From Propionimicrobium lymphophilum DSM 4903 (lineage in GTDB: Bacteria; Actinomycetota; Actinomycetes; Propionibacteriales; Propionibacteriaceae), in the NCBI RefSeq assembly GCF_000423485.1, contig NZ_AUIB01000004.1, positions 21,492-85,491 of the forward strand: a stretch of DNA of 64,000 nt. The letters are read 5' to 3'. A program made the position numbers and the translations under genes. Positions 1-49,790 of this stretch are shown piece after piece; position 1 is the first letter of the stretch, and every line of letters begins with the position of its first letter. The notes under the pieces were generated by a model, which was given only the letters and a program-made list of their open reading frames with translations, had not been told where the DNA came from and made no database searches.

Positions 1-262
1 CGCCACGCCTTGATGTTTCTTCAAAGACCCGAACTCCCACAACCTCATGCCTTTAGGTGGTCATCCGAATTATTGCGTCAAAAAAGGCTCGTCTACGAGC
101 CAAATCTGCCGCAATAATGTCGCGACCACTTAATAAGCAAGGCTGGTGGAGCTGGGTTGGCGAGCATTGGAGGCGTGGCGAAAGCCATACGCATGCGAAG
201 CATACGTCGCGAAGACACGGCGACTCGCTCGACAACCCAACCTAGACCAGAAACCGACGATC
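1..262 (+). repeat. Structured intergenic repeat, copy 1 (5'-truncated by the window edge)
   Basis: Three joined modules are visible. Module A is represented only by its right arm (1-43), ending in CAAAGACCCGAACTCCCACAAC-type sequence. Module B (about 44-140) nests GGTGGTC/GACCACTT, ATTATTGCG/CGCAATAAT and GGCTCGT-CT-ACGAGCC stems. Module C (about 141-262) runs from CTGGTGGAGCTGGGTTGG to the matching CCAACC arm. The same modules recur near 22.2, 25.7, 30.1, 43.4, 45.7 and 49.7 kb. No ORF here resembles a protein. The whole 1-416 stretch is this repeat plus the two small hairpins that follow it. Confidence 0.85.
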
Positions 263-303
263 GCCGTCCCAACCAGCCAAAAAACGTCACCAGAAAACAG
301 CAA

Positions 304-402
304 GAAAGAAAAGGTCCGTAGACGAGCCTTTTCTTCCGCGTCAATCAGACAAAAATAGCGGGAACCAAAAAGTTCGTAGTCGAGCCTTTTGGTTCCCGTT
401 AT
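304..402. terminator. Tandem pair of small A/T-armed hairpins; the inner one is the likely serC terminator
   Basis: Hairpin a (304-340) has GAAAAGG/CCTTTTC arms. Hairpin b (357-402) has CGGGAACCAAAA/TTTTGGTTCCCG arms. Both carry a TCG-N4-CGA-like core. The T-rich arm of b lies just past the serC stop on the minus strand, so it could act as a factor-independent terminator, and the symmetry would allow it to work in both directions. Similar pairs lie beside three other copies of the large repeat. Confidence 0.6.
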
Positions 403-416
403 TCGTCAAGCTGGAG

Positions 417-1517
417 TTACATCCGCTCTAACACCCAGTCGAGGCAGTTGATTAGAGCTTCGACATCGGACGGGTCCACCGCGGCGAACGTGCCGACTCG
501 GATCTGGTTGCGGCCAAGCGAACGGTAAGAGTTGATGTCTACGATGCCGTTGTCGCGCATGATGGCCAGCAGATCATCGGCCTTGATGCGCTCGTCCAAA
601 TCTAGGGTGACGGTCACCTGTGAACGGATCAACGGGTCGGAAACAAACGGTGTGACCAGCTCATGCTTCTCCGCCCAGTCGTAGAGCAGCTGGCTGGACT
701 TGGCAGTGCGGTCTGTGGCGAACTTCAACCCGCCATTCTCCAGCATCCACTCCAACTGTCCCTCAATTAGCAGAAGGTTAGCGATGGACGGGGTGTTCAG
801 CGTCTGGTGCTTTTCGGAATTGTTGATGGCCTTGACCATGTCTAGGCTGGCCGGCACCCATTCGCGGGTCTCCTGCACCTTCCGGGCGCGCTCGATGGCC
901 GCCGGCGAACAGATCGCGAACCACAGGCCGCCGTCACCGCCCAGGTTCTTCTGCGGGCTGAAATAGTAGACGTCGGTCTGAGAAACGTCGACGGGGATGC
1001 CACCGGCAGCGCTGGTCGCGTCGGTCAGGTAAAGGACGTCCTCGAAACCGCCGATCCGCTGAACCGGAGCGGCGACACCAGTGGAGGTCTCGTTCTGGGC
1101 CCAGGCGACGACGTCAACATCGTCACGCCTAGGCAGCGCGAGCTCACCGTTCTCTGCCTTGTTGATGGATGGCTCTTCGAGGAAGGGGGCGCCAGCGGCC
1201 TCCTTGGCGAACTTGGCGCCGAACTCGCCGAAGACGCCGTGCGCGGAGCGCTGAATGATCAGGGAAAAGACCGCAACGTCCCAGAACGTCGTGGCACCAC
1301 CGTTGCCCAAAACGACCTGATAGCCGTTCGGTGCGTCAAATAGTTCGGTGAACATTTCCTGCACGTGGGCGACGAGATCCCGAACCGGCTTCGCGCGGTG
1401 AGACGTGCCCATGATGTCGTTGCGGGTGCCGAGCTTGGCGAGCACATCCGGGTGTATGCGTGCCGGGCCGGAGCCGAAGCGTCCGTCGACAGGTAAAAGT
1501 TCCTTGGGGATCTGCAT
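417..1517 (-). CDS. serC: Phosphoserine aminotransferase SerC
   Basis: PLP-dependent transaminase of the class V fold that converts 3-phosphohydroxypyruvate and glutamate to O-phosphoserine and 2-oxoglutarate in cytosolic serine (and pyridoxal) synthesis. The 366-residue product begins MQIPKELLPVDGRFGSGPAR, typical of the actinobacterial branch. The likely Schiff-base lysine is in YYFSPQKNLGGDGG, and RSQVTVTL and NQIRVGTFAA mark the C-terminal domain. The ATG at 1517 is preceded by GAAAGG about 7 nt upstream. A longer in-frame start exists but would overlap the upstream small gene. That gene ends 4 bp before this start, so the two are probably co-transcribed. Serine made here is the substrate of CysE encoded nearby. 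Confidence 0.93.
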   Translation of the reverse strand: MQIPKELLPVDGRFGSGPARIHPDVLAKLGTRNDIMGTSHRAKPVRDLVAHVQEMFTELFDAPNGYQVVLGNGGATTFWDVAVFSLIIQRSAHGVFGEFGAKFAKEAAGAPFLEEPSINKAENGELALPRRDDVDVVAWAQNETSTGVAAPVQRIGGFEDVLYLTDATSAAGGIPVDVSQTDVYYFSPQKNLGGDGGLWFAICSPAAIERARKVQETREWVPASLDMVKAINNSEKHQTLNTPSIANLLLIEGQLEWMLENGGLKFATDRTAKSSQLLYDWAEKHELVTPFVSDPLIRSQVTVTLDLDERIKADDLLAIMRDNGIVDINSYRSLGRNQIRVGTFAAVDPSDVEALINCLDWVLERM

Positions 1518-1521
1518 GTCT

Positions 1522-1743
1522 TTACCTTTCGGTTGCCTGGGTCGGGTTGAAGGTGAGCCAGTCCGACGAAGTCTCGAACATTGCCGCCTGGGTGGGCTTC
1601 TCTTCCACGAGCTGCACGGGCTCATCGTAGTCGCGCTCAACCCGTTTGCTGGGTTCCACTTTTTTCGGTGCCGCGTCGAACGCCTGCATCACGAACTGTT
1701 CCAGAGCCGTGTTACCCGATTTGTGTTTGCGAACCTCTGCCAT
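1522..1743 (-). CDS. Small hypothetical protein upstream of serC
   Basis: A 73-residue acidic/basic mixed protein starting MAEVRKHKSGNTALEQFV. It has no membrane segment, signal peptide or metal motif, and I do not recognise the family. An AGGTGA ribosome-binding site lies about 6 nt before the ATG. Its stop codon is 4 bp from the serC start, so it is probably translated from the same transcript. The C-terminal half (KPTQAAMFETSSDWLTFNP) looks disordered. An upstream in-frame ATG at 1803 would add 20 residues but has no obvious ribosome-binding site. Coding status rests mainly on the good RBS and the tight spacing. Confidence 0.6.
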   Translation of the reverse strand: MAEVRKHKSGNTALEQFVMQAFDAAPKKVEPSKRVERDYDEPVQLVEEKPTQAAMFETSSDWLTFNPTQATER

Positions 1744-1941
1744 GCTTTCACCTGCTCTTAAGACTTTTGTCCTATTCAACCAGTTCGCGACAGGAATTAA
1801 CATCTTCCGGCTCCTCAGGTTTCTGGTTTGACCGCGGTCGGAAGATCAGTTTTGAGTGGGATTTTGGTCACCAATTGGGACAGCTTTGGCGGCAGCGTCG
1901 TCGGGCGGCAAAATATGCTAGGTCAGGATTTTGGAGGGCAC

Positions 1942-3369
1942 ATGAGTAAAAAAGAACACACCACGCTCGAGCGTCGGTTGACCAGCGGCCAAGTGGCCAT
2001 GATTGGCCTTTCGGGCGCGCTCGGCACCGGTCTTTTCTTGGGGTCCGGCTCGGTTATCGCGCTGGGCGGCCCGGCCACCGTCATCAGCTACGTTCTGGCT
2101 GGCCTCTGCGCACTGTCGATCGTCTGGGCGCTAGCGGAGATGGTGACGGTTCACCCCGTCCCGGGTGGCGTTGGACGAGTTGCTGGCAGCTATCTTGGGC
2201 CCTTCGGCGGTTATCTCACGCACTGGAATTTCGCGATTGAAATGCTGATCGCAGTCGGGGCCGAGGTGACGGCGTCGGCGACGTACCTGCACTTCTGGTT
2301 CCCCAACCTGCACCTGGGCATCGGCACAATCCTCTGTTCGCTTTTCGTGATTGGCCTGAACATGGCCACTGTGCGCCTCTACGGAACGAGCGAATACTGG
2401 TTCTCGATGATTAAGGTTACCGCGATCGTCGTGTTCATCCTTCTCGGTCTTTATCTAATCTTCTTCGGTTCCTCCGCCGATCACGCCACCGGATTCGGTA
2501 ACCTGACTACAGACGGGGGCTTCTTCGCCACCGGTTTCGGCGGTGTGCTCGCGGCCGCCTGCATGGCCGTGTTCTCCTTCGGCGGTATAGAGAATGTTTC
2601 GATCGGTGCGGCCGAGTCCGAGCATCCCGAGCGTGACGTGCCCCGCGCGGCCCACACCATGATTTGGCGTCTGCTGATCTTCTACGTGCTTGCAATCCTG
2701 GTTGTGCTCGCGCTGCAACCGTGGACAGAAACCGCGCAGGGTGGCGGCACCGTCAATGAATCGCCGTTTGTGCGAGTCCTGGAGATGACGGGTGTGCCCG
2801 CCGCCGCGCACATCATGAACGCGATTCTTTTGGTGGCCGCGCTTTCGGCTGCGAACGGCTGCCTGTATGCGTCGAGCCGCATGATTCACTCACTCGGCGA
2901 GCAGCGCATGGCTCCCCGCTTCACCGCGCGAACCTCCACCCATGGCGCTCCCCGCGGAGCCGTCCTTATCGCGGCTGCGGGCATGGCGATCGCCTCCATC
3001 CTGGCACTGACAAGCCCCGACAAGGCGTTCATGTACCTGTATGGCTGTGCGACCGTTGGCATTCTTGTGACGTGGATCATGGTGATGATTACGCACCTGA
3101 AGTTCCGCAGGGACCGCAAGCAGGCGGGCCTCGGCATTCCGAAGGCGCATCTGCTTGGCGCGCCCGTCGTAAACTACCTGATCATCGCAGTCTCCATCGC
3201 AATTTTCATCGCACTGCGCTGGCTGCTGCCACCGGTTTGGACGGCCGGCATCCCGTACATCATCCTGCTGTGCCTTTCGTACCTGCTTGTCAGGAACCGT
3301 CATTCGGGCATACCGCGCGGAGACCTGCTGGGGCAGTCCGTTCAGCAAGAGAAGAGCCAAAAGGCATAG
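1942..3369 (+). CDS. Amino-acid permease (APC superfamily, AAT family)
   Basis: A 475-residue integral membrane protein with about 12 hydrophobic segments. It opens with LERRLTSGQVAMIGLSGALG and GTGLFLGSG, the helix-1 signature of proton-coupled amino-acid permeases of the CycA/GabP/ProY group. The specific substrate cannot be read from sequence. The ATG at 1942 has a GGAGGG site a few nt upstream; a longer in-frame start at 1828 lacks one. It converges with cysE across a short strong terminator. A segment of this gene (about 2734-2867) is repeated in a damaged chimera near 10.5 kb, so a second permease-cysE locus probably once existed. Confidence 0.88.
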   Translation: MSKKEHTTLERRLTSGQVAMIGLSGALGTGLFLGSGSVIALGGPATVISYVLAGLCALSIVWALAEMVTVHPVPGGVGRVAGSYLGPFGGYLTHWNFAIEMLIAVGAEVTASATYLHFWFPNLHLGIGTILCSLFVIGLNMATVRLYGTSEYWFSMIKVTAIVVFILLGLYLIFFGSSADHATGFGNLTTDGGFFATGFGGVLAAACMAVFSFGGIENVSIGAAESEHPERDVPRAAHTMIWRLLIFYVLAILVVLALQPWTETAQGGGTVNESPFVRVLEMTGVPAAAHIMNAILLVAALSAANGCLYASSRMIHSLGEQRMAPRFTARTSTHGAPRGAVLIAAAGMAIASILALTSPDKAFMYLYGCATVGILVTWIMVMITHLKFRRDRKQAGLGIPKAHLLGAPVVNYLIIAVSIAIFIALRWLLPPVWTAGIPYIILLCLSYLLVRNRHSGIPRGDLLGQSVQQEKSQKA

Positions 3370-3387
3370 TCGAAAACCCATATAGAT

Positions 3388-3431
3388 GAAAGGTAGCGTC
3401 CCCTGAAATTTTTGGGGGACGCTACCTTTTT
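3388..3431. terminator. Bidirectional factor-independent terminator between permease and cysE
   Basis: A long inverted repeat, AAAGGTAGCGTCCCC / GGGGGACGCTACCTTT, is flanked by A- and T-runs on opposite sides. It would form a strong stem with a U-tract in either direction and serves two convergent genes. Confidence 0.9.
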
Positions 3432-3440
3432 CTTGAGTTT

Positions 3441-4223
3441 TTACAGCAGCATCTGGTTCATCGTCAGCGACGGGAATTCCTCGGCAGGTGCGTCGATCAC
3501 CTTAGCGGGCACGCCCGTCACCGTGGTGTGAGCCTCGACGTCGCGCAGCACGACGGAACCAGCACCGATCTTCGCGCAGTCGCCCACGGTTATATTGCCC
3601 AGCACCTTTGCGCCGGCGCCGATCATCACGCCCTTGCCGATCCTCGGGTGACGGTCGCCGTCCTCCTTGCCGGTGCCGCCGAGAGTCACCTCGTGCAGCA
3701 TCGAGAAGTTGTCGCCGACGACCGCGGTCTCGCCGATGACGACGCTGGTGGCGTGGTCGAACATGATGCCGCGCCCGATTTTTGCCCCGGGGTGGATGTC
3801 GACGGCGAAAACCTCGCTGATGCGCGACTGCAGGAACAACGCCAGCGGCTTGTGGCCAAGCTCCCAATAGTGATGGGCGATTCGGTAACTCTGAATGGAC
3901 TGGAAACCCTTGAAATACAGGAGCGGCTGCGTGTAGCCGAGAGTGGCCGGGTCGCGGTCTGCCACGGCTTGCAGATCGCAGAGCACGGCGTCGCGAATAT
4001 CCGGGTCGATCAAGGCATCGTCGATCAAACATTCCAGCGCCGAGGCCGTCATGGCGTGATTGGCAAGCTTGCCAGCAAGCAGAGAACTCAGCGCGGACTC
4101 CAAGCTGGGGTGGCGCAAGATAGCCTCGTTCAGGAAACCAGCTAGTGCTGGCTCGGCCTCGGCATCTCGCTTAGCTTCCAGCCTAACCTGAGCCCAGATT
4201 TGATCGTTTGGAACAGTCTTCAC
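3441..4223 (-). CDS. cysE: Serine O-acetyltransferase CysE
   Basis: Transfers acetyl from acetyl-CoA to L-serine, giving O-acetylserine for cysteine synthesis. At 260 residues it is the long, enterobacterial-type form: an N-terminal helical domain (about 1-140, PNDQIWAQVRLEAKRDAEAE) and a C-terminal left-handed beta-helix of hexapeptide repeats (DIHPGAKIGRGIMFDHATSV, HPRIGKGVMIGAGAKVLGNI). The catalytic Asp/His pairs are in DIHPG and FDHAT. The start is GTG at 4223, with a TAGCCT -10 hexamer exactly 6 nt before it and no Shine-Dalgarno, so the mRNA is probably leaderless. A 5' duplicate of this gene survives at about 10.6-10.9 kb. Confidence 0.95.
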   Translation of the reverse strand: MKTVPNDQIWAQVRLEAKRDAEAEPALAGFLNEAILRHPSLESALSSLLAGKLANHAMTASALECLIDDALIDPDIRDAVLCDLQAVADRDPATLGYTQPLLYFKGFQSIQSYRIAHHYWELGHKPLALFLQSRISEVFAVDIHPGAKIGRGIMFDHATSVVIGETAVVGDNFSMLHEVTLGGTGKEDGDRHPRIGKGVMIGAGAKVLGNITVGDCAKIGAGSVVLRDVEAHTTVTGVPAKVIDAPAEEFPSLTMNQMLL

Positions 4224-4229
4224 ATTACT

Positions 4230-4235
4230 AGGCTA
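4230..4235 (-). promoter_or_regulatory. -10 element of leaderless cysE promoter
   Basis: TAGCCT followed by 6 nt and the GTG start. The same element is preserved in the relic copy near 10.92 kb. Confidence 0.6.
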
Positions 4236-4333
4236 CCCGCCAACGGAATGAAGTAACTCTCAGCAGGCGCACAGGCACAAAGTTACTTGTCAAGACGCAT
4301 TTGCGAGCAGGCCAGATGTGCCAGACTGTTTTC

Positions 4334-5266
4334 ATGAAGATCCTCGTCGACACTGACCCAGGAGTTGATGACGCCTTCGCGTTGCTCTTCGCCCTGGCTA
4401 ACCCAAATCTAGAAGTGATAGGGGTCACGACGGTTGGTGGAAACGCTTTCCTAGACGACGTGACCCGAAACGCATCCGGTCTGCTGGCCCTGGCAAAGCG
4501 CTACTACGATTTCACTATTCCGACCCTGCATATGGGGCTGCAATCCCACAGGCGCGGGAACGCCGAATCCGTCCACGGCATCGGCGGCCTGGGCGGGGTT
4601 CATCTGCCCGCCAATTTCCCGGTCGGAAATGACGCGATAGGTTTCATCGTAGAAACCTTGAGGGCCAATCCCGGCGAGATCCGCCTGGTCACGCTGGGCC
4701 CGCTGACGAATATCGCGGCCGCGCTCGAAGTGGAGCCCGAGCTGCCGAGGCTTGCTGCCGGAATCAGCATCATGGGCGGTGCGGAACGTGGCGGAAACTC
4801 CGGTAACGAGGCCGAATTCAACATCTGGCAGGATCCTGCCGCAGCGGAAAAGGTTTTTGACGCCGCTTGGACATCGTTTTCGATGTGTGGGCTGGACGCA
4901 ACCGCGTGTACGACTTTCACGCCCGAATTGCGCGAGCTGTGCTTCCAGGTTGGCCGCGAGGGCAACGAGATCGGCACGCTGTTGCACGACATCACCCGCG
5001 ACTACATCAACCGCGACTGGACCGCGAACCAGGTGCTCGGCTGCCGGGTGCACGACCTGCTTCCCGTTGCGCTTCTCGTCGACGAAACCATCGCAAAATC
5101 GGTAAAGGCGCGAGTACGGGTGCAAGTTGGCGGCCCGTTCGACGGGCGGACCATCGTCACCCGGGGCACCGGGGACGTGAACGTCTACACGGACAGCACT
5201 GACAATAAGAAGCTGATGAACCTGCTGATGCTTACGCTGTTTCCCCGGCTAAAAAGATTTCTCTAG
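4334..5266 (+). CDS. Inosine-uridine preferring nucleoside hydrolase
   Basis: Hydrolyses the N-glycosidic bond of ribonucleosides, releasing base and ribose for salvage in the cytosol. The 310-residue protein carries the calcium-site motif DTDPGVDDAFALLFA at its N-terminus, GGNAFLDDVTRN, and a C-terminal HDLLPVALLVDE that matches the HDPLAVA active-site region. The ATG at 4334 has no Shine-Dalgarno; a CAGACT -10-like hexamer ends 6 nt upstream, so it may be leaderless. Its 3' end overlaps the 3' end of the convergent transporter ATPase by 18 bp. Substrate preference cannot be assigned. Confidence 0.9.
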   Translation: MKILVDTDPGVDDAFALLFALANPNLEVIGVTTVGGNAFLDDVTRNASGLLALAKRYYDFTIPTLHMGLQSHRRGNAESVHGIGGLGGVHLPANFPVGNDAIGFIVETLRANPGEIRLVTLGPLTNIAAALEVEPELPRLAAGISIMGGAERGGNSGNEAEFNIWQDPAAAEKVFDAAWTSFSMCGLDATACTTFTPELRELCFQVGREGNEIGTLLHDITRDYINRDWTANQVLGCRVHDLLPVALLVDETIAKSVKARVRVQVGGPFDGRTIVTRGTGDVNVYTDSTDNKKLMNLLMLTLFPRLKRFL

Positions 5267-5974
5267 CTTTCGCTGCTTCGGCTCAACCAGGGAAAGCAGA
5301 CCGTCTTCGAAACGGTAGTAGCGTCCACACATTGCCTTGATCAGATCGAGGTCGTGCGAAATAAGCATTACGGTAAGCCCGTGCTCTTCATTGAGTCGCC
5401 TAACCAGGCCCATGATCTGTGCCTGCACCGAAAGATCCAACATGGAACTGGCCTCGTCCAGCAGAAGGCACGATGGTTCCATCAGGAGGCACCTTGCCAG
5501 GGCTAGCCGCTGCAACTGGCCGCCGCTGAGCTGGTGCGGATAGCGTTCGAGCAGAGCTGACTCAAGCCCAACCTCGACGAGCTTCTGCTCAATGAGTTCT
5601 TTCCTGTCCTCGTAAATATTGAACAGATGCAGCGGCTCGTACATGCTCCGCTCAATCAGCCACCTGGGGTTGAACGCATTTCTGGGATCTTGAAAGACCA
5701 TCTGGACATCCCGGTGCATTTCACGTCTTGCTCGCGGGCTCAAGCTTTTGATGTCCTGACCCAGATATTTTATTTTGCCCTGCGACCAGTCCGTTAGCTG
5801 AAAAAACATCCTGAACAGGGTGGATTTGCCGCAGCCGCTCGGCCCGTAGAGCCCCAGGATTTCGCCCTTGTGTATCTCTAGGTCTAGATCGGTGAAAACG
5901 ACCCTTGGTTTAGATGTCAATAGAGACGGATAGGACTTCGTGACTCCCTCATAGCTCAGCAATACTTCAGACAT
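5249..5974 (-). CDS. ABC transporter ATP-binding protein, NikE/DppF type
   Basis: Second ATPase of the nickel/peptide-class importer. The 241-residue protein has Walker A GPSGCGKST, the signature LSGGQLQRLALAR and Walker B CLLLDEASSMLD, followed by the His-loop LISHDLD. It lacks the long oligopeptide C-terminal extension of its partner. The ATG at 5974 lies inside the 3' end of the upstream ATPase gene (19-bp overlap), which implies translational coupling. It is the last gene of the operon that begins with the cobalamin riboswitch and presumably powers uptake of the ligand bound by the lipoprotein. Confidence 0.88.
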   Translation of the reverse strand: MSEVLLSYEGVTKSYPSLLTSKPRVVFTDLDLEIHKGEILGLYGPSGCGKSTLFRMFFQLTDWSQGKIKYLGQDIKSLSPRARREMHRDVQMVFQDPRNAFNPRWLIERSMYEPLHLFNIYEDRKELIEQKLVEVGLESALLERYPHQLSGGQLQRLALARCLLMEPSCLLLDEASSMLDLSVQAQIMGLVRRLNEEHGLTVMLISHDLDLIKAMCGRYYRFEDGLLSLVEPKQRKLEKSF

Positions 5975-10219: not shown

Positions 10220-10276
10220 GCTTGCGGCTATGCGGCGAAACGCGAATGAAATACAGCCATCCTCGTGGCCGCAAAG
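10220..10276 (-). promoter_or_regulatory. Hairpin between riboswitch and first transporter gene (possible expression platform)
   Basis: On the minus strand TTGCGGC pairs with GCCGCAA around a long loop. No clean U-run follows, so this could be part of a translational or antiterminator switch rather than a simple terminator. The alternative pairing with the aptamer was not resolved. Confidence 0.4.
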
Positions 10277-10284
10277 CACTTCTT

Positions 10285-10385
10285 CAGTTAGAGAGGTATC
10301 TGACTTAGCTCATCGCATCACAGTTACGGGATAGTTCGGGGTTCTCACCCGATTCCCTCTTGGCAAGGAAGCCTATATTTATTCC
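10285..10385 (-). promoter_or_regulatory. Cobalamin (B12) riboswitch aptamer
   Basis: Reading the minus strand, the conserved core elements appear in the right order: GAGGGAATCGGGTGAGAA, then CTATCCCGTAACTGT, then AAGTCAGATACC. These match the B12-box core (GGGAA..GGTG..AA, CCCGC-AACTG, AGTCAGA-ACC). It lies about 90 nt upstream of the GTG of the NikA-like lipoprotein gene and transcribes into it. Cobalamin riboswitches normally switch off B12 synthesis and cobalt or corrinoid uptake when adenosylcobalamin or a related corrinoid is plentiful. An A/T-rich -10-like sequence (TAAATA) sits just upstream of the aptamer. Confidence 0.87.
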
Positions 10386-10492
10386 ACAGGATTTGCCACC
10401 GTGTAGGGCATGTTCGGGGCGGATCGAAGTTTGATTTAGCCGACCGGCGCTGTCTTCGATTCGTCCAGGACGATACACACTTCGTCGCCTGG

Positions 10493-17107: not shown

Positions 17108-17157
17108 GACTTCCTCCGTTTCATCGCAGAGGGCCACGAAATTGTGGCAGAGCTCGA

Positions 17158-17236
17158 CTACCTCCGCCGGCATTACCCAGTTCAGGTTCGAGGGTCTGCG
17201 GACTTTCCGCACTCTCAGCCTTAACGGCTCCCCTGT
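17158..17236 (-). promoter_or_regulatory. TPP (thi-box) riboswitch upstream of thiB
   Basis: On the minus strand the aptamer reads GGGGAGCCGTTAAGGCTGAG, with AGTGCGG next, and ends GACCCTCGAACCTGA..TGGGTAATGCCGGCGGAGG. All core thi-box elements are present (GGGG, CTGAGA, ACCTGA, GGGTAATxCC). A small GCCAC/GTGGC hairpin lies between the aptamer and the CGGAGGAAG ribosome-binding site, and may form part of the switch. Binding of thiamine pyrophosphate is expected to reduce thiBPQ expression. Confidence 0.93.
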
Positions 17237-17247
17237 CGTACCAATGC

Positions 17248-21971: not shown

Positions 21972-22004
21972 ATCCGGCTCCCATATCGGACATCAACAGA
22001 TCAG

Positions 22005-22107
22005 TGGGAACCAAAATGTCCGTACTCGAGCTTTTCTGCACCCGTTAATAATTCTCTAGTTAGCGGGAGCCAAAACATTCGACTACGAACTTTTCTGTTC
22101 CCGTTAT
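22005..22107. repeat. Tandem pair of small A/T-armed hairpins (left of repeat copy 2)
   Basis: Hairpin c (about 22005-22046) and hairpin d (about 22062-22105) each show a GGGAnCCAAAA / TTTTCTG-CCCG type stem with a TCG-N4-CGA-like core (CGTACTCGA, CGACTACGA). They lie just after the Nudix stop and could terminate it. Confidence 0.6.
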
Positions 22108-22132
22108 TTTCGACGACGTGTTGGTTGGCCTT

Positions 22133-22549
22133 GGTGCTCTTGGTTGGTGGTTAGCTTGGACATTCTCGGTTGGCGGTAGGCCTTGCTGCTTCTCGGCGGT
22201 TGTGGGATTCGGGTCTTTGCGTCACTGGCAACGTGTCTCCGCTCCTAATTCAAGCGCTATTGCGCTTGAATGCCGTTGCTTTCGCCACGCCTTGATGTTT
22301 CTTCAAAGACCCGAACTCCCACAACCTCATGCCTTTAGGTGGTCATCCGAATTATTGCGTCAAAAAAGGCTCGTCTACGAGCCAAATCTGCCGCAATAGC
22401 GCGGTGAACACTTAACTGAACGAGGCTGGTGGAGCTGGGTTGGGTTGGCGAGCATCGAGGCGTGGCGAGAGCGAAATCTCGTCAATCGCGAAAGCGATGA
22501 GAGATAAACGAAGACACGGCGACTCGCTCGACAACCCAACCCAGACCAG
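22133..22549 (+). repeat. Structured intergenic repeat, copy 2 (near full length)
   Basis: A leader of GGTGCTCTTGGTTGGTGG type (22133-22198) precedes module A (22199-22325), B (22326-22428) and C (22430-22549). The module A tip stem is TTCAAGCGC-TATT-GCGCTTGAA. Module C ends in GAAGACACGGCGACTCGCTC and CAACCCAACCCAGACCAG. It fills the space between the convergent Nudix and DUF2207 genes; no protein is encoded. Confidence 0.88.
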
Positions 22550-22595
22550 AAACCGACCATTAAAGTCCAGGCCAGACACAAACCTCGAGAAATCT

Positions 22596-25494: not shown

Positions 25495-25539
25495 CCGCTT
25501 CTAACTCTGGTTTCGTTGGACGGTTTCCGACGGCTGCTG

Positions 25540-25933
25540 GCCTGGGTGCTGAAGGTCGCCTGACGGCATGGCTGCTTAAGGTCGGCTGCTGGCCTGGGTT
25601 GGGTTGTCGAGCGAGTCGCCGTGTCTTCGTTTATCTCTCATCGCTTTCGCGATTAACGAGCTATCACTCCCGACACGCCTCGATGCTCGCCAACCCAGCT
25701 CCACCAGCCTCGCTTATTAAGTGGTCGCGACATTACTGCGGCAGATTTGGCTCGTAGACGAGCCCTTTTTGACGCAATAATTCGGATGACCACCTAAAGG
25801 CATGAGGTTGTGGGAGTTCGGGTCTTTGAAGAAACATCAAGGCGTGGCGAAAGCGACGATATCCAAGCGCCAAAGCACTTGGATGAGGAGCGGAGACACG
25901 TAGCCAGTGACGCAAAGACCCGAATCCCACAAC
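25540..25933 (-). repeat. Structured intergenic repeat, copy 3 (reverse orientation)
   Basis: A GGTCGGCTGCTGGCC spacer (about 25540-25590) is followed, on the minus strand relative to copies 2 and 4, by modules C (25591-25715), B (25716-25805) and A (25806-25933). The tip of A reads, in module orientation, ATCCAAGTGC-TTTG-GCGCTTGGAT, which keeps pairing through one U-G wobble. It lies between the convergent metallopeptidase and ispF genes. The rest of the 25495-26047 gap is repeat-like flank with no gene. Confidence 0.87.
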
Positions 25934-26047
25934 CGTCGAAAACCGTTCAACGAAACCACAGACGAGTCGCAACCAAACCAGCAACCGACCTGCAGCTACA
26001 AAGTAAGCCACAAGCAGCAACCGACGAGAACGTATCGGAAAGAAAAG

Positions 26048-29848: not shown

Positions 29849-29884
29849 CCAGCCGTACTTTTGTTTGGCTGGACGCACATGGTC

Positions 29885-30381
29885 GGTTGTCGGCCTGGAA
29901 GCACAGGGACGTCTGCTGTCTTGGCTGCTCAAGGCCGGCTGCTGCTCTGGAAGCTTAAGGTCGGCTGCTGGCCTGGATTGGGTTGGCCTGTTTATGGTCA
30001 CCCCGATAGCTTCTTGTCGGTTGTGGGATTCGGGTCTTTGCGTCACTGGCAACGTGTCTCCGCTCCTGATTCAAACGCTTTCGCGTTTGAATGTCGTCGC
30101 TCTCGCCACGCCTTGATGTTCCTTCAAAGACCCGAACTCCCACAACCTCAGATATCTAAGTACTCACTTAACACGTCTTCAGAATTGTTGCGTCAAAAAA
30201 GGCTCGTCTACGAGCCAAAACTGCCGCGATAATGCCGCGACCACTCAACCGAGTAAGGCTGGTGGAGCTGGGTTGGTTTGGCGAGCATTGAGGCGTGGCG
30301 AGAGTGAAATCTCGACATCGCGCAAGCGATAAGAGATAAACGAAGACACGGCGACTCGCTCGACAAACCAACCCAGACCAG
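29885..30381 (+). repeat. Structured intergenic repeat, copy 4
   Basis: GGTCGGCTGCTGGCCTGG-type spacer units (29885-29990) are followed by module A (30020-30148), a diverged B (30149-30258; stem ATTGTTGCG/CGCGATAAT, same GGCTCGT-CT-ACGAGCC tip) and C (30260-30381). The A tip is TTCAAACGC-TTTC-GCGTTTGAA, a compensatory change from copy 2. It lies between the convergent phoU and gpmA genes. Confidence 0.87.
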
Positions 30382-30455
30382 CAACCGACCAACACCGTCC
30401 AGGCAAGCAGCCGACCACAAGCAACCTGGCCAACCACAAACGTCACCAGAAACAA

Positions 30456-30555
30456 CGAGGATAAAAAAACTCCGTAGACGAACTTTTTCTTCCACGCTAA
30501 TTAGCCAGAAAACAACGGGGATGAAAAAGCTCGACAACGAACCTTTTCTTCCTCA
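30456..30555. repeat. Tandem pair of small A/T-armed hairpins (right of repeat copy 4)
   Basis: Hairpin e (30456-30494; GGATAAAAAAA / TTTTTCTTCC arms, core CGTAGACGA) and hairpin f (30515-30555; GGGATGAAAAAGC / CCTTTTCTTCC arms, core CGACAACGA). Same spacing and design as the pairs near 0.35, 22.05 and 45.6 kb. Confidence 0.6.
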
Positions 30556-30573
30556 CGAATACGTTTTGGGCAT

Positions 30574-30610
30574 AAAAATATCCCGCGCAGGTTAGCGCGG
30601 GATATTTTTG
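30574..30610 (-). terminator. gpmA terminator
   Basis: AAAAATATCCCGCGC / GCGCGGGATATTTTT stem with a 6-nt loop, just beyond the gpmA stop. Confidence 0.9.
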
Positions 30611-30615
30611 TTGGC

Positions 30616-42085: not shown

Positions 42086-42091
42086 CATTAT
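42086..42091 (+). promoter_or_regulatory. -10 element of leaderless alr promoter
   Basis: CATTAT, 6 nt, ATG. Confidence 0.45.
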
Positions 42092-42097
42092 GGTTTC

Positions 42098-43219: not shown

Positions 43220-43307
43220 GGTCATTACCCATCCTTGAGGCCTCTAGCTACCGCTTCGCGTGACGCGGGGGCCTGGGTGCCTTCCTCTGGTGGCTTTTCT
43301 TGGTGCT

Positions 43308-43622
43308 CTTGATTGGTGGTTAGTTTGGACATTCCTGGTTGGCGGTTGCCTGGTTGCTTTTGACGGTTGTGGGATTCGGGTCTTTGCGTCACTGGCTACG
43401 TGTCTCCGCTCCTCATCCAAGCGCTTTGGCGCTTGGATATCGTCGCTTTCGCCACGCCTTGATGTTTCTTCAAAGACCCGAACTCCCACAACCTCATGCC
43501 TTTAGGTGGTCATACGAATTATTGCGTCAAAAAAGGCTCGTCTACGAGCCAAATCTGCCGCAATAATGTCGCGACCACTTAATAAGCAAGGCTGGTTACC
43601 AACTGATAGAGCTAGGTTGGCG
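43308..43622 (+). repeat. Structured intergenic repeat, copy 5 (3'-truncated)
   Basis: A leader of GGTGCTCTTGATTGGTGG type (43308-43365) resembles copy 2. Module A (43366-43495) has tip ATCCAAGCGC-TTTG-GCGCTTGGAT. Module B (43496-43590) is complete. Module C is cut to a remnant (AGCTAGGTTGGCG). It lies between the convergent alr and bluB-cobT genes; the 43220-43646 gap holds nothing else. Confidence 0.87.
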
Positions 43623-43646
43623 TCCACGTAAAGGTAGCCAACTGGG

Positions 43647-45428
43647 CTAGCAGGTTGGCGTCCACCGGGCGGCGGCCTCACGAACGCGCATCCCCGTCAG
43701 AAGCATTTGGGCTCCGTAGCAGGCACCGACGCCTTCGCCCGCGCGCATCCGCAGCTCGAGGAGTGGTTCGAGGCCGAGCTCGTCGAGAACTTTCTGGTGG
43801 GCGTGTTCGCGACTGACGTGGGACGCGATCAGCCAGCCTTGCACTCCGGCGCTGATCTGGACGGCAGCCAGCGCGGCGACGCTCGTCGCGAGGCCATCTA
43901 AAACTATGACGCTGCCGGCCTTGGCTGCGCCTAAGACGACGCCCGTCAGCACGGCGAATTCCGGGCCACCGACGGCGGCGAGAGCCTCGATCGGGTCGCG
44001 CAGGTCGCGTCCCTGAAGGCGCTCGAATGCGCCTGTCAGAACCTTGATTTTGCGTTCAACCATCGAGGAGTCGCTGCTGGCACCCAGGCCGACGGCATCC
44101 TCGGGGCTCAGGCCGGCGAGCGCGCACGCCAGCGCGGAGGCCACGGTGGTGTTTCCGATTCCGATTTCGCCCAGGCATACCAGGCCATCGCCGGATAGCT
44201 TCTCGCCCAGCTCGATGCCGCGCTCTACCAGCAATTTAGTTTGTTCGAGGCTCATTGCGTCAGTGGTGACGATGTCGCCGCGCTGGCCGGGCAGCCGCAG
44301 GTCTATTGCGCCCTCGATAGGCCCCTCGTTCACGCCTGCGTCTACTGTCACCGAGGTCAAGCCGATAGTTTTTGCGGTGGCTGCACCCAGCGAAGAGCCG
44401 GCCGCCGAAGCACGCATAACCTCGTATGTGACGGATGAATCGAACGCTGAAATCCTGTGCGAGGTGATCGGGTGATCTGCGCCAACGATGACCAGCGTGC
44501 CGGAATCAACCTTGTCCATCGCGGCACCCAGCCTGTCGAGCGCCTGGTCGAGCTTGCCCAATGATCCCGGAGGCGTCAACAGCTGATCGGCCTCGTCGCG
44601 GGCACCGACCACGTCCAACCTGCCGGGCGCGCTGACCTGCATGTTCGCGTACTTTTCGGCCAGATCCTCGCGTAGCCCAGAAACGGGTGCGGACGGCTCG
44701 TCGGACTGTGGCCAACGGTTTCTCAGCACGACTTCTTCCAGCGGCAGGCGTTTCGACCATCCGCGGCGCTCCAAGCCGGGCGACGGCGGGCGCTCGTCCG
44801 GCCAGCCCAGGCACATCCAACCTAGCGTCTCCACGCCCTCGGGTAGCCCGAGCATTTCGGCTAACTCTGCCGGGTCGAACAGCGTCACCCAGCCCATGCC
44901 AAGCCCGCGCGCCCGGGCGGCAAGCCACATGTTCTCGATCGCGGCCGCGCAGCTCCACATGTCCGCGTCGGTGAAAGTGTTCCTTCCTAGCACTCCCGAT
45001 GATGGGGTTCGCCTATCGCATGCCACCACAATTCCAAGCGGGGCCTCGCGAATGCCCTCCAGTTGAAGGTCCAGCAGTCGCGCCGCGCGGTCTTGAGTCA
45101 GCAGCTTCGCCTGACGTAGCCTCTCGCGGTCTGCCATCACTGCTGCCCGGTCGCGGATGTCTTGGTCGCTGACCACAATGAAGCGCCAGGGTTGCGAATG
45201 TCCAACCGAAGGGCCCCTATGCCCCGCAGTCAAAACCTGTTCGACCTGTTCCTGCGGCACCTCGTCGGCGCGATACCTTCTGATATCTCGCCTTGCAGAA
45301 ATAACCTCATCCAGAGCGGCGGTAACTGCCTCACCCATGCTCCACGCTTCCGGATCCTGCTGGCGGTCTACATGGCTCGTCGCGTCGCCGATGTTCGGCA
45401 CCGGACGTTCGTACTTATCATTGCTCAT
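43647..45428 (-). CDS. BluB-CobT fusion: DMB synthase plus NaMN:DMB phosphoribosyltransferase
   Basis: A 593-residue bifunctional protein for the cobalamin lower ligand. Residues about 30-235 are a BluB-type flavin nitroreductase fold (SARRDIRRYRADEVPQEQVE, HRGPSVGHSQPWRF, ARGLGMGWVTLFDPAEL), which turns reduced FMN into 5,6-dimethylbenzimidazole. Residues about 250-593 are CobT (PPGSLGKLDQALDRLGA, GEIGIGNTTVASAL, with the catalytic Glu region RMRAGEGVGACYG), which makes alpha-ribazole phosphate. The fusion would channel DMB. The start ATG follows TAGTCT-N6. No other cob genes are in the window, but the B12-riboswitch transporter at 5-10 kb is functionally linked. Confidence 0.92.
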   Translation of the reverse strand: MSNDKYERPVPNIGDATSHVDRQQDPEAWSMGEAVTAALDEVISARRDIRRYRADEVPQEQVEQVLTAGHRGPSVGHSQPWRFIVVSDQDIRDRAAVMADRERLRQAKLLTQDRAARLLDLQLEGIREAPLGIVVACDRRTPSSGVLGRNTFTDADMWSCAAAIENMWLAARARGLGMGWVTLFDPAELAEMLGLPEGVETLGWMCLGWPDERPPSPGLERRGWSKRLPLEEVVLRNRWPQSDEPSAPVSGLREDLAEKYANMQVSAPGRLDVVGARDEADQLLTPPGSLGKLDQALDRLGAAMDKVDSGTLVIVGADHPITSHRISAFDSSVTYEVMRASAAGSSLGAATAKTIGLTSVTVDAGVNEGPIEGAIDLRLPGQRGDIVTTDAMSLEQTKLLVERGIELGEKLSGDGLVCLGEIGIGNTTVASALACALAGLSPEDAVGLGASSDSSMVERKIKVLTGAFERLQGRDLRDPIEALAAVGGPEFAVLTGVVLGAAKAGSVIVLDGLATSVAALAAVQISAGVQGWLIASHVSREHAHQKVLDELGLEPLLELRMRAGEGVGACYGAQMLLTGMRVREAAARWTPTC

Positions 45429-45434
45429 GGCTAA

Positions 45435-45440
45435 AGACTA
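45435..45440 (-). promoter_or_regulatory. -10 element of leaderless bluB-cobT promoter
   Basis: TAGTCT, 6 nt, ATG on the minus strand. No riboswitch is visible upstream of this gene. Confidence 0.55.
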
Positions 45441-45558
45441 TCTTCACCCATTTTTGATTTTTCCGGCACTCCATTGGAGCTGGTTGATCTTTTAGCTTCT
45501 GGTCGATTTCTGACCTGGCAGCTCCCTCTTGTGGCTGGTTTGTACGTCGACGGGATTA

Positions 45559-45659
45559 GCGTTGAGGAAATTGTTCGATGTCGATCGTTTTGGTTCCCGC
45601 TAAATCTTTACGAATCAGCGTGGAAGAAATTGTTCGACGTCGAACTTTTTCCTCCTCGT
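45559..45659. repeat. Tandem pair of small A/T-armed hairpins (left of repeat copy 6)
   Basis: Hairpin g (45559-45600; core TCGATGTCGA) and hairpin h (45619-45659; core TCGACGTCGA) follow the same design and spacing as the three other pairs. This is the only pair not adjacent to a gene end. Confidence 0.6.
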
Positions 45660-45699
45660 TTTTTGCACTTGGGCCCGGGTGGCCACTTTTCAGGTTGAG

Positions 45700-45823
45700 G
45701 TTGTGGGAGTTCGGGTCTTTGAAGGAACGTAAAGGCGTGGCGGGAACGAAGTGATTCATCGCTTGCGATGAGAACGCAGCGGAGACACGTGCCCAGTGAC
45801 GAAAAGACCCGAACTCCCACAAC
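45700..45823 (-). repeat. Structured intergenic repeat, copy 6 (module A only, reverse)
   Basis: Only module A is present: GTTGTGGGAGTTCGGGTCTT at the left, its complement at the right end, and a short CATCGC/GCGATG tip. Modules B and C are absent. Unlike the other internal copies it lies between divergent genes, next to a DnaA-box cluster. Confidence 0.85.
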
Positions 45824-45916
45824 CGTCGAGATGTTCCCAGGTCAACCACCACGTCACCAGGATCAGCCGGATAAAAAAACCGGCATAAATCGACAGTCAC
45901 GCGTAAATACACAGAG

Positions 45917-46003
45917 TTATCCACAGGATTATCCCCAGAATGGGGATAATTACAGGCATGTAATTACAGCGATGTTGGTAACCCTGTGGATAACTGTGGA
46001 TAA
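45917..46003. other. Dense DnaA-box cluster
   Basis: Within 87 bp there are three perfect boxes, TTATCCACA (45917-45925) and TGTGGATAA (45985-45993 and 45995-46003). Two one-mismatch boxes face each other, TTATCCCCA (45929) and TGGGGATAA (45941). It lies in the divergent gap between the bluB-cobT gene and an unknown membrane gene. It could be a second part of the origin, a displaced dnaA-promoter region, or a DnaA-titration site. Confidence 0.7.
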
Positions 46004-46090
46004 GTGGTTATTTCCCACACGAGTGTTTGAGGGGTTCCTGCCGCAATGGGCGGCATCGTGGGCTTGTCGGGGACGTGCGAAGATGAAGAT

Positions 46091-46708
46091 ATGAACGATT
46101 ACCTGGGCGCGCTTTTTGCCACGCTTGGCGCTTCCCTGAGCCTGAACGGGGATGGCGGCAGTGTGCGCGGCTGGGCGGTGTCGGTTGGCATTGGATTGGT
46201 TGCGGGCGTCTCCACCATGCTCGGGCAGTGGGCGGTGCTGGCTATTAATAGGGTGCGTGGGCTGCGCATGGCCATGACGTTGTTGACGTCGGCTGCGGGG
46301 ATGCTCCTGAAAGGCGCCATCCAGTCAGCGCTGTTCATCTTGCTCGGAAACCTGTTTTTGGGTGTCGATCTGTCGCTGAGTCAGGTGCTGCCCCTGGTGC
46401 TCGCGTCGTACGGTCCGTTCTGGTTCGGTTTCTTAGTCGTGCTGCCCTACACGGGCCCGGGTATCGCGCGAATTTTGAACGTCTGGGTGCTGCTGGCGAT
46501 GTGGTCGTTTGCCATAGTCAGTCTAGGTTTGACCAGGCCAAATGCGTTGCTTTTGACGCTGGGCGCTTGGCTCGGCGCGCAGATCATCGACTGGTCCTTC
46601 GAGCTGGCCCCGATAAGGCTCGCCACCCGCGTTTTCAGGTGGGTCAGCGGGAGCGAAGGCGTAACGTCCGACGATCTGATGAGGGCTGCAGAGGATAGGC
46701 GAGTCTGA
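46091..46708 (+). CDS. Unknown polytopic membrane protein
   Basis: A 205-residue protein with about five hydrophobic segments: VSVGIGLVAGVSTMLGQWAV, AAGMLLKGAIQSALFILLG, VLPLVLASYGPFWFGFLVVL, NVWVLLAMWSFAIVSLG and LLLTLGAWLGAQIIDW. A short cytosolic tail follows. I do not recognise the family. The start at 46091 is chosen because it follows a GAAGAT stretch; an earlier in-frame ATG at 46046 is possible. Its stop overlaps the next ATG by one base, so the two proteins are translated together and may work together at the membrane. Confidence 0.75.
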   Translation: MNDYLGALFATLGASLSLNGDGGSVRGWAVSVGIGLVAGVSTMLGQWAVLAINRVRGLRMAMTLLTSAAGMLLKGAIQSALFILLGNLFLGVDLSLSQVLPLVLASYGPFWFGFLVVLPYTGPGIARILNVWVLLAMWSFAIVSLGLTRPNALLLTLGAWLGAQIIDWSFELAPIRLATRVFRWVSGSEGVTSDDLMRAAEDRRV

Positions 46709-47763
46709 TGATCGTTTTGCAGATTATTTTGGTCATGGTTTTGGGCCTGGTGATCGCCGGCCTATTCGCCCCCGGCGAGGCCCTGTCTTGGTGGCAGCGC
46801 AACTATGCTCATCTGGATTCTTCGCCTGACGCCCCAATTATCGACTGGCCTAGACTCGAGCAGGCAAAGCAGGCCCCGCTCGAGCAAGAAATAGAGCTAC
46901 CGGCCGAGGTGGCGGATAACGTTGCCCGGCCGAAACCGGTGGTTGCGGAGGATGGCGACGAGCACTATCTGGTTTACCTTTCCGGCATCGGCACTAGCGG
47001 GCCCGACCAGCTGCCCGTTTTTGAGGTTCCAGTCGTCGATGAGTTGGCCAAGCGCCTCGGAAAGACCACCGTTATTTGGGATATCTACCCATATTCTGTG
47101 GAAAACCAGGCGTTGACCACCGGCAGACGCTTCTCGGGGCTTTGGCAGAGGCTGAGAATCTGGAAATTCGAGAAAAAACCGGGGCGCTTTTTGGCGGTCA
47201 TGATCAACGTGCGTAACGCCTTCCAGATGCTTGTCAGTTCCGACCGCAGGTATGGGCCGGTGTTCAACCTGGCGGTCGCCGAACAGATCTCGGCGGCGTT
47301 GCTTCGTCACGGCTACAAGCCCGAGGAGAAGAAGCCGGTCACTTTGCTCGGTTGGAGCGGTGGCGCGCAAATAGCTCTCGGCGCCACCTGGTATCTGTCC
47401 GCGCTCGGTGTGCCGGTTCGGGTCATTTCGATGGCCGGCATCACAAGCTCCGACCCCGGAATCGATCGTGCAGTGAAAATCTGGCACCTGCGCGGGCACA
47501 AGGATAACGTCACCAAGGCAGGGCTGCTGTTGTTTCCGCGGCGCTGGCGGATTTTTAAGAACACGTCGTGGAATCGTGCTATCAGGGACGGCCGGATTCA
47601 GCTCGTCGACCTGGGCGCGCTCACCCACACCGGCAAGTTCGGCTACTACTCGGCCAAAACAACCCTGCCCGACGGGCGCCAACCCCGACAGGCCAGCATC
47701 GACCATATCGTTAAGGTGCTCGTCGACGAGGGCCTGGCCACGGACACCGACGGCAAGTTTTAG
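46708..47763 (+). CDS. Unknown membrane-anchored alpha/beta-hydrolase-like protein
   Basis: A 351-residue protein with an N-terminal membrane anchor (VLQIILVMVLGLVIAGLFAP). A globular domain contains YLVYLSGIG near the first strand and LLGWSGGAQIALGATWYLSA, a GxSxG nucleophile elbow. A fold relationship to lipases/esterases is therefore likely, but a catalytic Asp/His cannot be fixed by eye. It is coupled to the upstream membrane gene through TGATG. The localisation of the domain (outside if the anchor is an uncleaved signal) is uncertain. Confidence 0.72.
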   Translation: MIVLQIILVMVLGLVIAGLFAPGEALSWWQRNYAHLDSSPDAPIIDWPRLEQAKQAPLEQEIELPAEVADNVARPKPVVAEDGDEHYLVYLSGIGTSGPDQLPVFEVPVVDELAKRLGKTTVIWDIYPYSVENQALTTGRRFSGLWQRLRIWKFEKKPGRFLAVMINVRNAFQMLVSSDRRYGPVFNLAVAEQISAALLRHGYKPEEKKPVTLLGWSGGAQIALGATWYLSALGVPVRVISMAGITSSDPGIDRAVKIWHLRGHKDNVTKAGLLLFPRRWRIFKNTSWNRAIRDGRIQLVDLGALTHTGKFGYYSAKTTLPDGRQPRQASIDHIVKVLVDEGLATDTDGKF

Positions 47764-47834
47764 CCAACGGCTCCGGGGCTAGCGGCTTTGGGTTAATGCG
47801 GCGAGCGTATTGGGTAAGTTGTGGGTAACGCTGA

Positions 47835-47840
47835 TAGTTT
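47835..47840 (+). promoter_or_regulatory. -10 element of leaderless glnS promoter
   Basis: TAGTTT, 7 nt, ATG at 47848. Confidence 0.45.
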
Positions 47841-47847
47841 TGCCTGC

Positions 47848-49554
47848 ATGAGCGAGTCGAAATCTAGTAATGGCGCAGGCGACTTCATCGCCGACATGGT
47901 TGCTGCTGACATCGAGGCGGGCACCTACGGCGGCAGGGTGCAGACGCGCTTCCCACCCGAGCCTAACGGCTACCTGCACATCGGTCACGCGAAGGCCGTG
48001 ACGGTTGACTTCGGCATCGCCGAGCAGTTCGGCGGCATCTGCAAGCTGCGTTTCGACGACACTAACCCGGACACGGAGGACGTGGAATACGTCGACTCCA
48101 TCATCGAGGACATCGAGTGGCTCGGCTACGAACCCGACGAGGTGATTTACGCCTCCGACTACTTCGAGGACTTGTACGAATGGGCGGTGCTGCTCATCAA
48201 GAACGGCCTGGCATACGTTGACGATCAGGACGGCGAAACCATCTCCGCCCAGCGCGGCCGCTTCGGTAAGCCGGGAGTGAATTCCCCCTACCGGGACCGT
48301 TCGGTGGAGGAAAATCTTGACCTGTTTAAGCGGATGCGTGATGGCGAATTCGCTGACGGCGAACGAGTGCTGCGCGCAAAAATAGACATGTCTGCGGACG
48401 AGATGAGCCTGCGCGACCCGGTCATGTACCGCATCCGTCACGTGCCACACCACCGCACCGGCACCAAGTGGTGCATCTACCCCAACTACGACTGGGCGCA
48501 CGGCCAGTCGGACGCGCTCGAGCACGTCACCCATTCGCTTTGCACGCTCGAATTCGTTTCACACCGCCCGCTTTACGACTGGTTCCTGTCCCACCTGCCA
48601 CTGCCCGCGGAGCAGCCCCGCCAGACGGAGTTCGCCCGCTTGGAGTTGACGCACACCGTCACCAGTAAGCGCAGGCTGCGCAAGCTGATCGAGGATGGCA
48701 TCGTTGATGGCTGGGACGACCCCCGCATGCCTACCCTTTCGGGTCTGCGCAGGCGAGGCTACCCGCCGGCGGCGATCAAGAATTTCTGCCGCGACATCGG
48801 AGTTTCTCGCACCAACTCGCGCCAGTCCATTGAGGAGTTGGAGAGCTACGTGCGTCGCGAACTCAACAAGACGGCGCAGCGGCGCATGGGTGTTCTGCAC
48901 CCGTTGAAGTTAACGCTCACCAACTGGCCCAAGGACGAGGCCGGCAACCCTGTGGTCGAGTATTTCGAGGTGGTTAATAACCCGGAGAACCCCGACGACG
49001 GCAAGCGCAAGGTTGCTTTTACCGGTGATCTGTATATCGAGAATGACGACTTCGCCGAGGTTCCCCCGCCCAAGTTCTTCAGGCTGTCGCCGGGTCGCGA
49101 GGTGCGTCTGCGTGGCGCATACTTCGTCACTGCCACCGACGTGGTTAAGGACGCCGACGGTAACGTCGTCGAGGTTATTGCCACTTATGACCCCGAGACT
49201 AAGGGTGGCGATGCACCCGACGGCCGTCGCGTGAAGTCCACGATGCACTGGGTGTCTGCCCCGCACGCCGTGGATGCCACCGTGAACCTCTACGACAAGC
49301 TGTTCACCGCCGATCTTCCTGGAGCTGAAACCGGGGAGCCGCTGGATGATCTGAACCCGAACTCCCGCGAGATTCTGACCGGCTGCAAGGTCGAGGCATC
49401 TCTGAGTGACGTCCCCGGCGGCGAGGTAGTGCAGTTCGAGCGCCTCGGCTATTTCGCCAAGGACAAGTTGGCCGAGATGACCTTCCACCGCACGGTCGGT
49501 CTGCGCGACGAGTGGGCCGCAATTCAGCGGCGCGCCCAGAAGGCGAAAAAGTAG
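47848..49554 (+). CDS. glnS: Glutaminyl-tRNA synthetase GlnS
   Basis: Class I aminoacyl-tRNA synthetase that charges tRNA-Gln directly, 568 residues. FPPEPNGYLHIGHAKAV carries the HIGH motif; THTVTSKRRLRKLIEDG carries the KMSKS-equivalent (TSKRR). KWCIYPNYDWAHGQSDALEH is GlnRS-specific, and the C-terminal beta-barrel anticodon-binding domain is present. Start ATG 47848 is favoured by TAGTTT-N7; a GTG at 47821 is an alternative. Many actinobacteria lack this enzyme and use the GatCAB route, so its presence suggests ancient acquisition. Confidence 0.94.
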   Translation: MSESKSSNGAGDFIADMVAADIEAGTYGGRVQTRFPPEPNGYLHIGHAKAVTVDFGIAEQFGGICKLRFDDTNPDTEDVEYVDSIIEDIEWLGYEPDEVIYASDYFEDLYEWAVLLIKNGLAYVDDQDGETISAQRGRFGKPGVNSPYRDRSVEENLDLFKRMRDGEFADGERVLRAKIDMSADEMSLRDPVMYRIRHVPHHRTGTKWCIYPNYDWAHGQSDALEHVTHSLCTLEFVSHRPLYDWFLSHLPLPAEQPRQTEFARLELTHTVTSKRRLRKLIEDGIVDGWDDPRMPTLSGLRRRGYPPAAIKNFCRDIGVSRTNSRQSIEELESYVRRELNKTAQRRMGVLHPLKLTLTNWPKDEAGNPVVEYFEVVNNPENPDDGKRKVAFTGDLYIENDDFAEVPPPKFFRLSPGREVRLRGAYFVTATDVVKDADGNVVEVIATYDPETKGGDAPDGRRVKSTMHWVSAPHAVDATVNLYDKLFTADLPGAETGEPLDDLNPNSREILTGCKVEASLSDVPGGEVVQFERLGYFAKDKLAEMTFHRTVGLRDEWAAIQRRAQKAKK

Positions 49555-49572
49555 AATCCAAAACTAGAAACT

Positions 49573-49611
49573 AAAAATGGCTGGTCTTTTTTCGAAGGCT
49601 AGCCATTTTTA
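49573..49611 (+). terminator. glnS terminator
   Basis: AAAAATGGCT / AGCCATTTTT stem with T-runs, 18 bp after the stop codon. Confidence 0.85.
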
Positions 49612-49649
49612 TTGAACTGGTTTTCAAAAGCAATGCAGCTCTGTTTTTA

Positions 49650-49790
49650 ATCTGGCTGCTCAAGGTCGGCTGCTGCCATGGTTAGGTTTTTCGAGTTCTT
49701 TCGCCTGTGTCTCCGTTTCGCTCTCATTGCTTGCGCAATATCGAGCTTCACTCCCGCCACGCCTTCAATGCTCTAAAACCTAACCCTGCC
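49650..49790. repeat. Structured intergenic repeat, copy 7 (degenerate module C)
   Basis: A GCTCAAGGTCGGCTGCTGCC spacer unit is followed by GGTTAGGTTTT and its complement AAAACCTAACC. These enclose a degenerate module C (GTGTCTCCGTTTCGCTCTCA, CGCCACGCCTTC). It lies between the convergent glnS and nrtR genes; the rest of 49612-49887 has no gene. Confidence 0.7.

Follow-up and report, generated by a model that had tools for sequence, protein, structure and literature searches.

The closest described counterparts of the repeats considered here are the BIMEs of Escherichia coli, that is, mosaics of palindromic units (REP/PU units of 20–40 bp) and linkers in which the order and number of the units vary and their orientation alternates; BIMEs lie outside genes, with an excess between convergent ones, are specific to a strain or species, and number in the hundreds. 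The BOX elements of pneumococcus are MITE-like, modular, intergenic, and hairpin-forming, with tens of copies and no coding capacity. The attC sites of integrons are imperfect hairpins: the lower part of the stem is conserved, some internal positions are unpaired, and the tip varies in sequence and length. For REPINs and the GTAG- or CGTC-tagged REPs, the published descriptions (PMC3116915; PMC3733652) report short inverted pairs of hairpins, positions about 20 bp or less from 3′ ends, stems and loops that vary and, for the CGTC REPs, no dedicated transposase. REPs are located near gene 3′ ends and at convergent junctions (PMC3733652; PMC1525189), and PMC3733652 reports no CGTC REP family from the phylum of the organism studied here.

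We analyzed a stretch of 64,000 nucleotides (the window; C3:21492–85491) from Propionimicrobium lymphophilum DSM 4903, the genome of which comprises 2,035,623 bases in 26 contigs. An earlier note had proposed that the window contains seven copies of a multi-hairpin intergenic repeat with compensatory changes in its stem tips. The reading that we favor, with a probability of about 0.68, is that these repeats form a lineage-specific, BIME/REP-like family of intergenic palindromic mosaics, that is, insertions kept palindromic at the DNA level.

The family shares with BIMEs the mosaic of palindromic units, their alternating orientation, the extragenic location, the preference for convergent genes, and the narrow distribution; it differs in that its sequence is unrelated and not built from enterobacterial REP/PU sequence (no match in the collections searched), its units measure 46, ~120, and 129 nt, its core loci number ~20, and no Y1 transposase was detected in the genome. 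The family works like a BIME and, judged by its sequence, is not one by descent. Arrays of its D hairpins recall the inverted pairs of REPINs, and its positions and varying stems and loops recall REPs; however, the hairpin feet of D and A have neither the GTAG nor the CGTC tag, the D stem is twice as long, and the genome contains no RAYT gene. The resemblance to BOX extends to modularity, intergenic location, hairpin formation, copy number, and the lack of coding capacity, but there is no sequence match, and no transposase ends or target duplications were identified. The resemblance to attC lies in the form of the hairpin; here, however, the core boxes are absent or reversed, and no cassette array was seen.

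Modules of the family and copies in the window

The family has an A-B-C core surrounded by arrays of D hairpins and by E repeats. Module A is a 129-nt hairpin (feet GGTTGTGGG / CCCACAACC) with a bulged C; its 22-bp lower stem is near-invariant, its internal loops are conserved, and its tip varies. Module B is a small hairpin with the tip GGCTCGTAGACGAGCC within a AAGTGGTC stem. Module C is a hairpin of ~120 nt that has the mid-stem sequences GTGTCTYCG and CGCCACGCC in common with A; the model of A finds C modules (E = 5e-6 and 2e-4), so the two, which had been described as separate modules, are homologous. Module D, the most numerous, is a 46-bp hairpin (about TTAACGGGAACCAAAAAGCTCGTAGTCGAACCTTTTGGTTCCCGTTAA; feet AAAYARCGGG / CCCGTTAATT) that occurs singly or in arrays of two or three spaced ~59 nt apart, in which the loop orientation often alternates. 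The imperfect repeats of module E measure 26 nt (about GGTCGGCTGCTGGCCTGGATGCTTAA) and flank the core in inverted orientation. The modules combine and decay independently, giving full, partial, and rearranged arrangements. Folded as single-stranded DNA, one whole copy is predicted to form three hairpins (A, B, and C) at 8.6 SD below shuffles; for another copy the prediction is z = −3.9 versus shuffles.

Reading and direct comparison of the seven stretches in the window establish that they are homologous members of one family, as the earlier note had claimed (with copy 2 as BLAST query against its own genome, the best non-self match has E = 1e-169, compared with 1.8e-218 for itself); the A-tip variants that it gave for copies 2, 4, 5, and 6 are also correct. 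Its count was too low for the genome as a whole, and D arrays and E repeats extend beyond the boundaries that it had drawn.

Copy 1, placed by that note at positions 1–262, is a family member of which the window contains only the right part, the copy beginning at C3:21268, before the window. The part inside consists of the 3′ end of module A (1–43, plus strand; the remainder precedes the window and is separated by a 10-N scaffold gap that lies inside the copy at the window start), module B (69–118, plus), and module C (141–261, minus), with a tip that is unrelated to the common C tip and still paired; two D hairpins without assigned strand are nearby (304–403, that is, 304–337 and 354–403). 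Because ~100 bp is repeated on both sides of the gap, part of copy 1 may be an assembly artefact. Copy 2 is preceded by two D hairpins (22000–22109, no strand assigned) and has a G-rich imperfect repeat arm of the E type (22117–22197), module A (22198–22326), and module B (22348–22403), all on the plus strand, followed by module C on the minus strand (22425–22560). Copy 3 has E repeats with a 26-nt period (25528–25605, plus), module C (25579–25718, plus), module B (25732–25781, minus), and module A (25806–25934, minus), the tip of which has a U-G on the module strand. Copy 4 has four E units with a 26-nt period (29881–29984, plus), module A (30019–30147, plus), module B (30182–30235, plus), and module C (30258–30392, minus), with two D tips after it (30472–30540, that is, 30472–30488 and 30524–30540; no strand assigned). 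Copy 5 has modules A (43365–43493, plus) and B (43518–43567, plus), with C truncated after B. Copy 6 is a lone module A (45703–45826, minus), the sole copy at a divergent junction, adjoined by a D hairpin (45613–45664, plus), and copy 7 is a diverged module C (49651–49797, plus).

Copies across the genome and searches beyond it

The BLAST search with copy 2 returned 32 matches, and more than 12 further family loci lie outside the window in the 2.04-Mb genome; the copies are carried by contigs C1, C3, C4, C6, C9, C12, and C13. Core copies occur in both orientations and in truncated forms. Four contigs (C4, C9, C12, and C13) end within module C, and parts of these copies, as of copy 1 at its scaffold gap, are to be treated with caution.

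Over 199 genomes of the taxonomic family, the model of A matched its own genome and none of the 198 others, and the model of D matched its own genome and gave one weak partial match (E = 0.0024, 24 nt) that we take as chance. Two sequence patterns, one for the exact A arm and one for the A/C core with gaps, had no match in GTDB r220 contigs (84,980 species, among which the genome itself is perhaps absent), and neither IMG/VR nor, by distant blastn, plasmids and phages yielded a match. No gene for a Y1 transposase (RAYT; PF01797) was found in the genome, which is estimated to be 100% complete, by a search that was positive in control genomes; no IS110 transposase was detected either. The suggestion that the copies could be decayed insertion-sequence ends was checked for these two families, and neither has a transposase here. 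With respect to the definition of a MITE, the two transposase families searched are absent and no target duplication was seen, at G012 junctions (described below) that are too diverged to show one.

Positions between genes

On heuristic coding-potential gene calls, which overlooked at least one short locus of two ORFs, 13 of the 21 element-bearing junctions are convergent, seven tandem, and one divergent; convergent junctions make up 39 of the 321 without an element (Fisher P = 4.5e-7). Several D hairpins start 2–10 bp past a stop codon, and most copies adjoin ordinary housekeeping genes.

We compared these junctions with those of the nearest complete relative (G012; 2.01 Mb, one contig). The genes that flank copy 3 are separated by ~0 bp in G012 and by 553 bp here; the corresponding gaps are 5 and ~440 bp at C6:28k, 35 and ~170 bp at C4:131k, and 0 and ~1,500 bp at C1:79k, where an ATPase gene has also been gained here. 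At the copy 1 junction the gap in G012 is about equal in length and is filled with other sequence. Because genes nearly abut at the matching junctions in G012, the elements are most simply insertions in this lineage, and element loss in G012 could also account for the difference; the divergence between the genomes is too great for target duplications to be discerned.

Several genes are located between element copies. The ATPase gene (AAA/DUF4143; L103:388–1893, C1:79387–80892 of this genome, G000) lies between D hairpins, and the two genes outside it abut in G012. A locus of two ORFs that has an AbiEi-like domain and is apparently frameshifted lies between near-identical pairs of D hairpins (L047:8749–10022, G000 C1:69748–71021), and copies 5 and 6 have a BluB-CobT fusion gene (dimethylbenzimidazole synthase and phosphoribosyltransferase) between them (43647–45428 in the window). 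Such genes suggest plasticity at the junctions that the repeats mark. At a tandem junction, a lone B-type hairpin (L045:9709–9756, G000 C1:31.7k) is found just upstream of a sequence that resembles a cobalamin riboswitch by eye.

The copies are unevenly spread. The gene dnaA is at C3:102.7k and a dif-like site is at C2:302.8k. All modules are missing from C2 (465 kb), where 5.7 of about 25 loci would be expected (P about 0.0015). Eight element-bearing junctions fall within the initial 72 kb of C3, and on the far side of dnaA this contig has no match. By marker mapping on G012, most but not all carriers are within 400 kb of dnaA; C6:28k is about 590 kb away. Since the test was devised post hoc, after the matches had been seen, and the contig order is not known, the skew is a lead only. 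As a separate observation on this region, gyrB and gyrA are ~90 kb from dnaA here (G000 C3:10241–104057) and gyrB is ~5 kb from it in G012, a rearrangement near the origin.

Pairing in the stems and strand polarity

Across 12 copies of module A, the covariation score is 0.081, versus 0.038 in shuffles (0 of 500 reach it), with 12 double-changed cells versus 2.9. We then used a tree-based null, that is, the parsimony number of changes placed randomly on the tree, also with a tree that omits the tip columns; the observed values were reached in 0 of 2000 replicates for the score and 0 of 2000 for double-changed cells, with the signal lying wholly in four pairs of one 9-bp tip, at about two events each. 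In module D (31 copies) there is no excess: the score is 0.155 versus 0.169 in shuffles, and five pairs are double-changed versus 8.9. The compensatory change that had been read in the stem tips is therefore supported against a phylogenetic null for four pairs in the tip of A, and D does not have it. In addition, the tips of A and C include mutually unrelated sequences that are still predicted to fold, some weakly, so part of the tip change is block replacement, not stepwise substitution.

A structured RNA from one strand (a 3′-UTR or small RNA with three hairpins), the tip pairing of which is selected as RNA, would explain why the covariation in A exceeds both nulls; it would also fit the strong predicted folding and the two invariant G-U pairs of A, which sit on the module strand and are too few to decide. 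Such selection is expected to leave single-side changes as G-U rather than A-C on the selected strand. Instead, the single-side departures in A are even (3 G-U and 3 A-C in module orientation), and in D, which has no covariation, A-C is at least as frequent as G-U (91 and 65 cells in loop orientation). The earlier note took the wobble in copy 3 as a hint that RNA from that strand is the selected form; the U-G is present, but two other copies (L002 and L009) have the reverse polarity, C-A in module orientation, that is, G-U solely on the opposite strand. The A-C at A columns 57/74 occurs in two copies, both at contig or scaffold ends. Also against an RNA are the occurrence of core copies in either orientation, some of them truncated, and an Rfam scan that matched nothing within the elements and only cobalamin and TPP riboswitches (in the window these are on the minus strand, at 10274–10399 and 17142–17244). 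Given the absence of covariation in D, the even polarity in A, and the block-wise replacement of tips, selection as one-strand RNA is unsupported, and we regard this explanation as unlikely, if the strongest of the alternatives. Template switching in DNA can create and repair hairpins and yields compensatory change (PMC8794818).

Other explanations

It is still surprising that A and C have a conserved mid-stem core in common beneath tips that change freely yet stay paired, and that genes occur between copies. The A and C hairpins might be recognition structures in which the conserved bulged core (GTGTCTYCG / CGCCACGCC) is read by unknown machinery that tolerates any paired tip; the elements and the genes between them would then move as single-stranded DNA in its folded form, with no Y1 transposase. 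This proposal is unlikely.

If the elements were attC-like recombination sites bordering mobile gene cassettes, this would account for the imperfect hairpins observed here, with a stem conserved in its lower part, unpaired positions inside, and a tip that varies, and would explain the ATPase gene that G012 lacks between its outer neighbors and the AbiEi-like gene between D pairs. However, the attC core boxes (RYYYAAC...GTTRRRY) are absent in A, and C has similar letters in reverse order, on which ground identity with attC was rejected; with housekeeping genes flanking most copies, we consider cassette sites improbable.

If the elements were selected as bidirectional terminators or as mRNA 3′-end protectors of converging genes, they would be expected past stop codons at convergent junctions, where many of them are; a terminator consensus is also matched by B tip hairpins that have T runs after them. 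However, D stems have no T run 3′ of them, a terminator scan shows no excess over shuffles, and 39 of 52 sampled convergent junctions have no element. Since several elements have distinct terminator-like palindromes beside them (30572–30611 and 49572–49611 in the window), we rejected termination as their main role, and selection for it is very improbable.

Least probable of all is a chromosome-organization site, bound by protein as duplex DNA and excluded from the terminus: the copy-free dif-bearing contig and the dense start of C3 fit it, but the post hoc test, the distant copy on C6, the empty far side of dnaA, and the long imperfect hairpins, which are atypical for such sites, speak against it.

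Implications

We therefore return to mosaic palindromic repeats of the BIME/REP kind, a reading to which the genome-wide mosaic family, the convergent bias, the near-abutting junctions in G012, and the REP-like positions point, as do the even G-U/A-C polarity, the lack of covariation in D, and the exchange of whole tips in A and C with folding retained. Three observations run against this reading: the A-tip covariation passes the tree-based null, as a selected structure would; no mover enzyme (Y1 or IS110) was found and no target duplication was seen; and the two invariant wobbles of A are on the module strand. Of the three possibilities that the earlier note had left, a cruciform and a non-autonomous mobile element fit best when taken jointly as a REP/BIME-like palindromic repeat, and a structured one-strand RNA fits less well.

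The elements would have spread as non-autonomous DNA, by a lost or not-yet-identified enzyme or by recombination, and would have persisted where insertion is harmless. Their tips would stay palindromic since both arms act as a single DNA object, either because one arm templates the other during replication (template switching) or because a protein requires the extruded hairpin; the resulting paired substitutions and whole-tip replacements would mimic RNA covariation. Template switching may operate at these elements by analogy with the described cases, and any effect of the hairpins at RNA 3′ ends would be secondary.

The family is new and previously uncatalogued; its kind, BIME/REP-like, is already known, that is, the same way of life with an unrelated sequence. 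Covariation in a hairpin may pass a tree-based null without implying a functional RNA: within these elements A covaries, D does not, and the strand polarity is neutral. The family adds a BIME-like mosaic that has no match in the collections searched and no resident Y1 transposase, and it bears on how repeats of the REP type spread.
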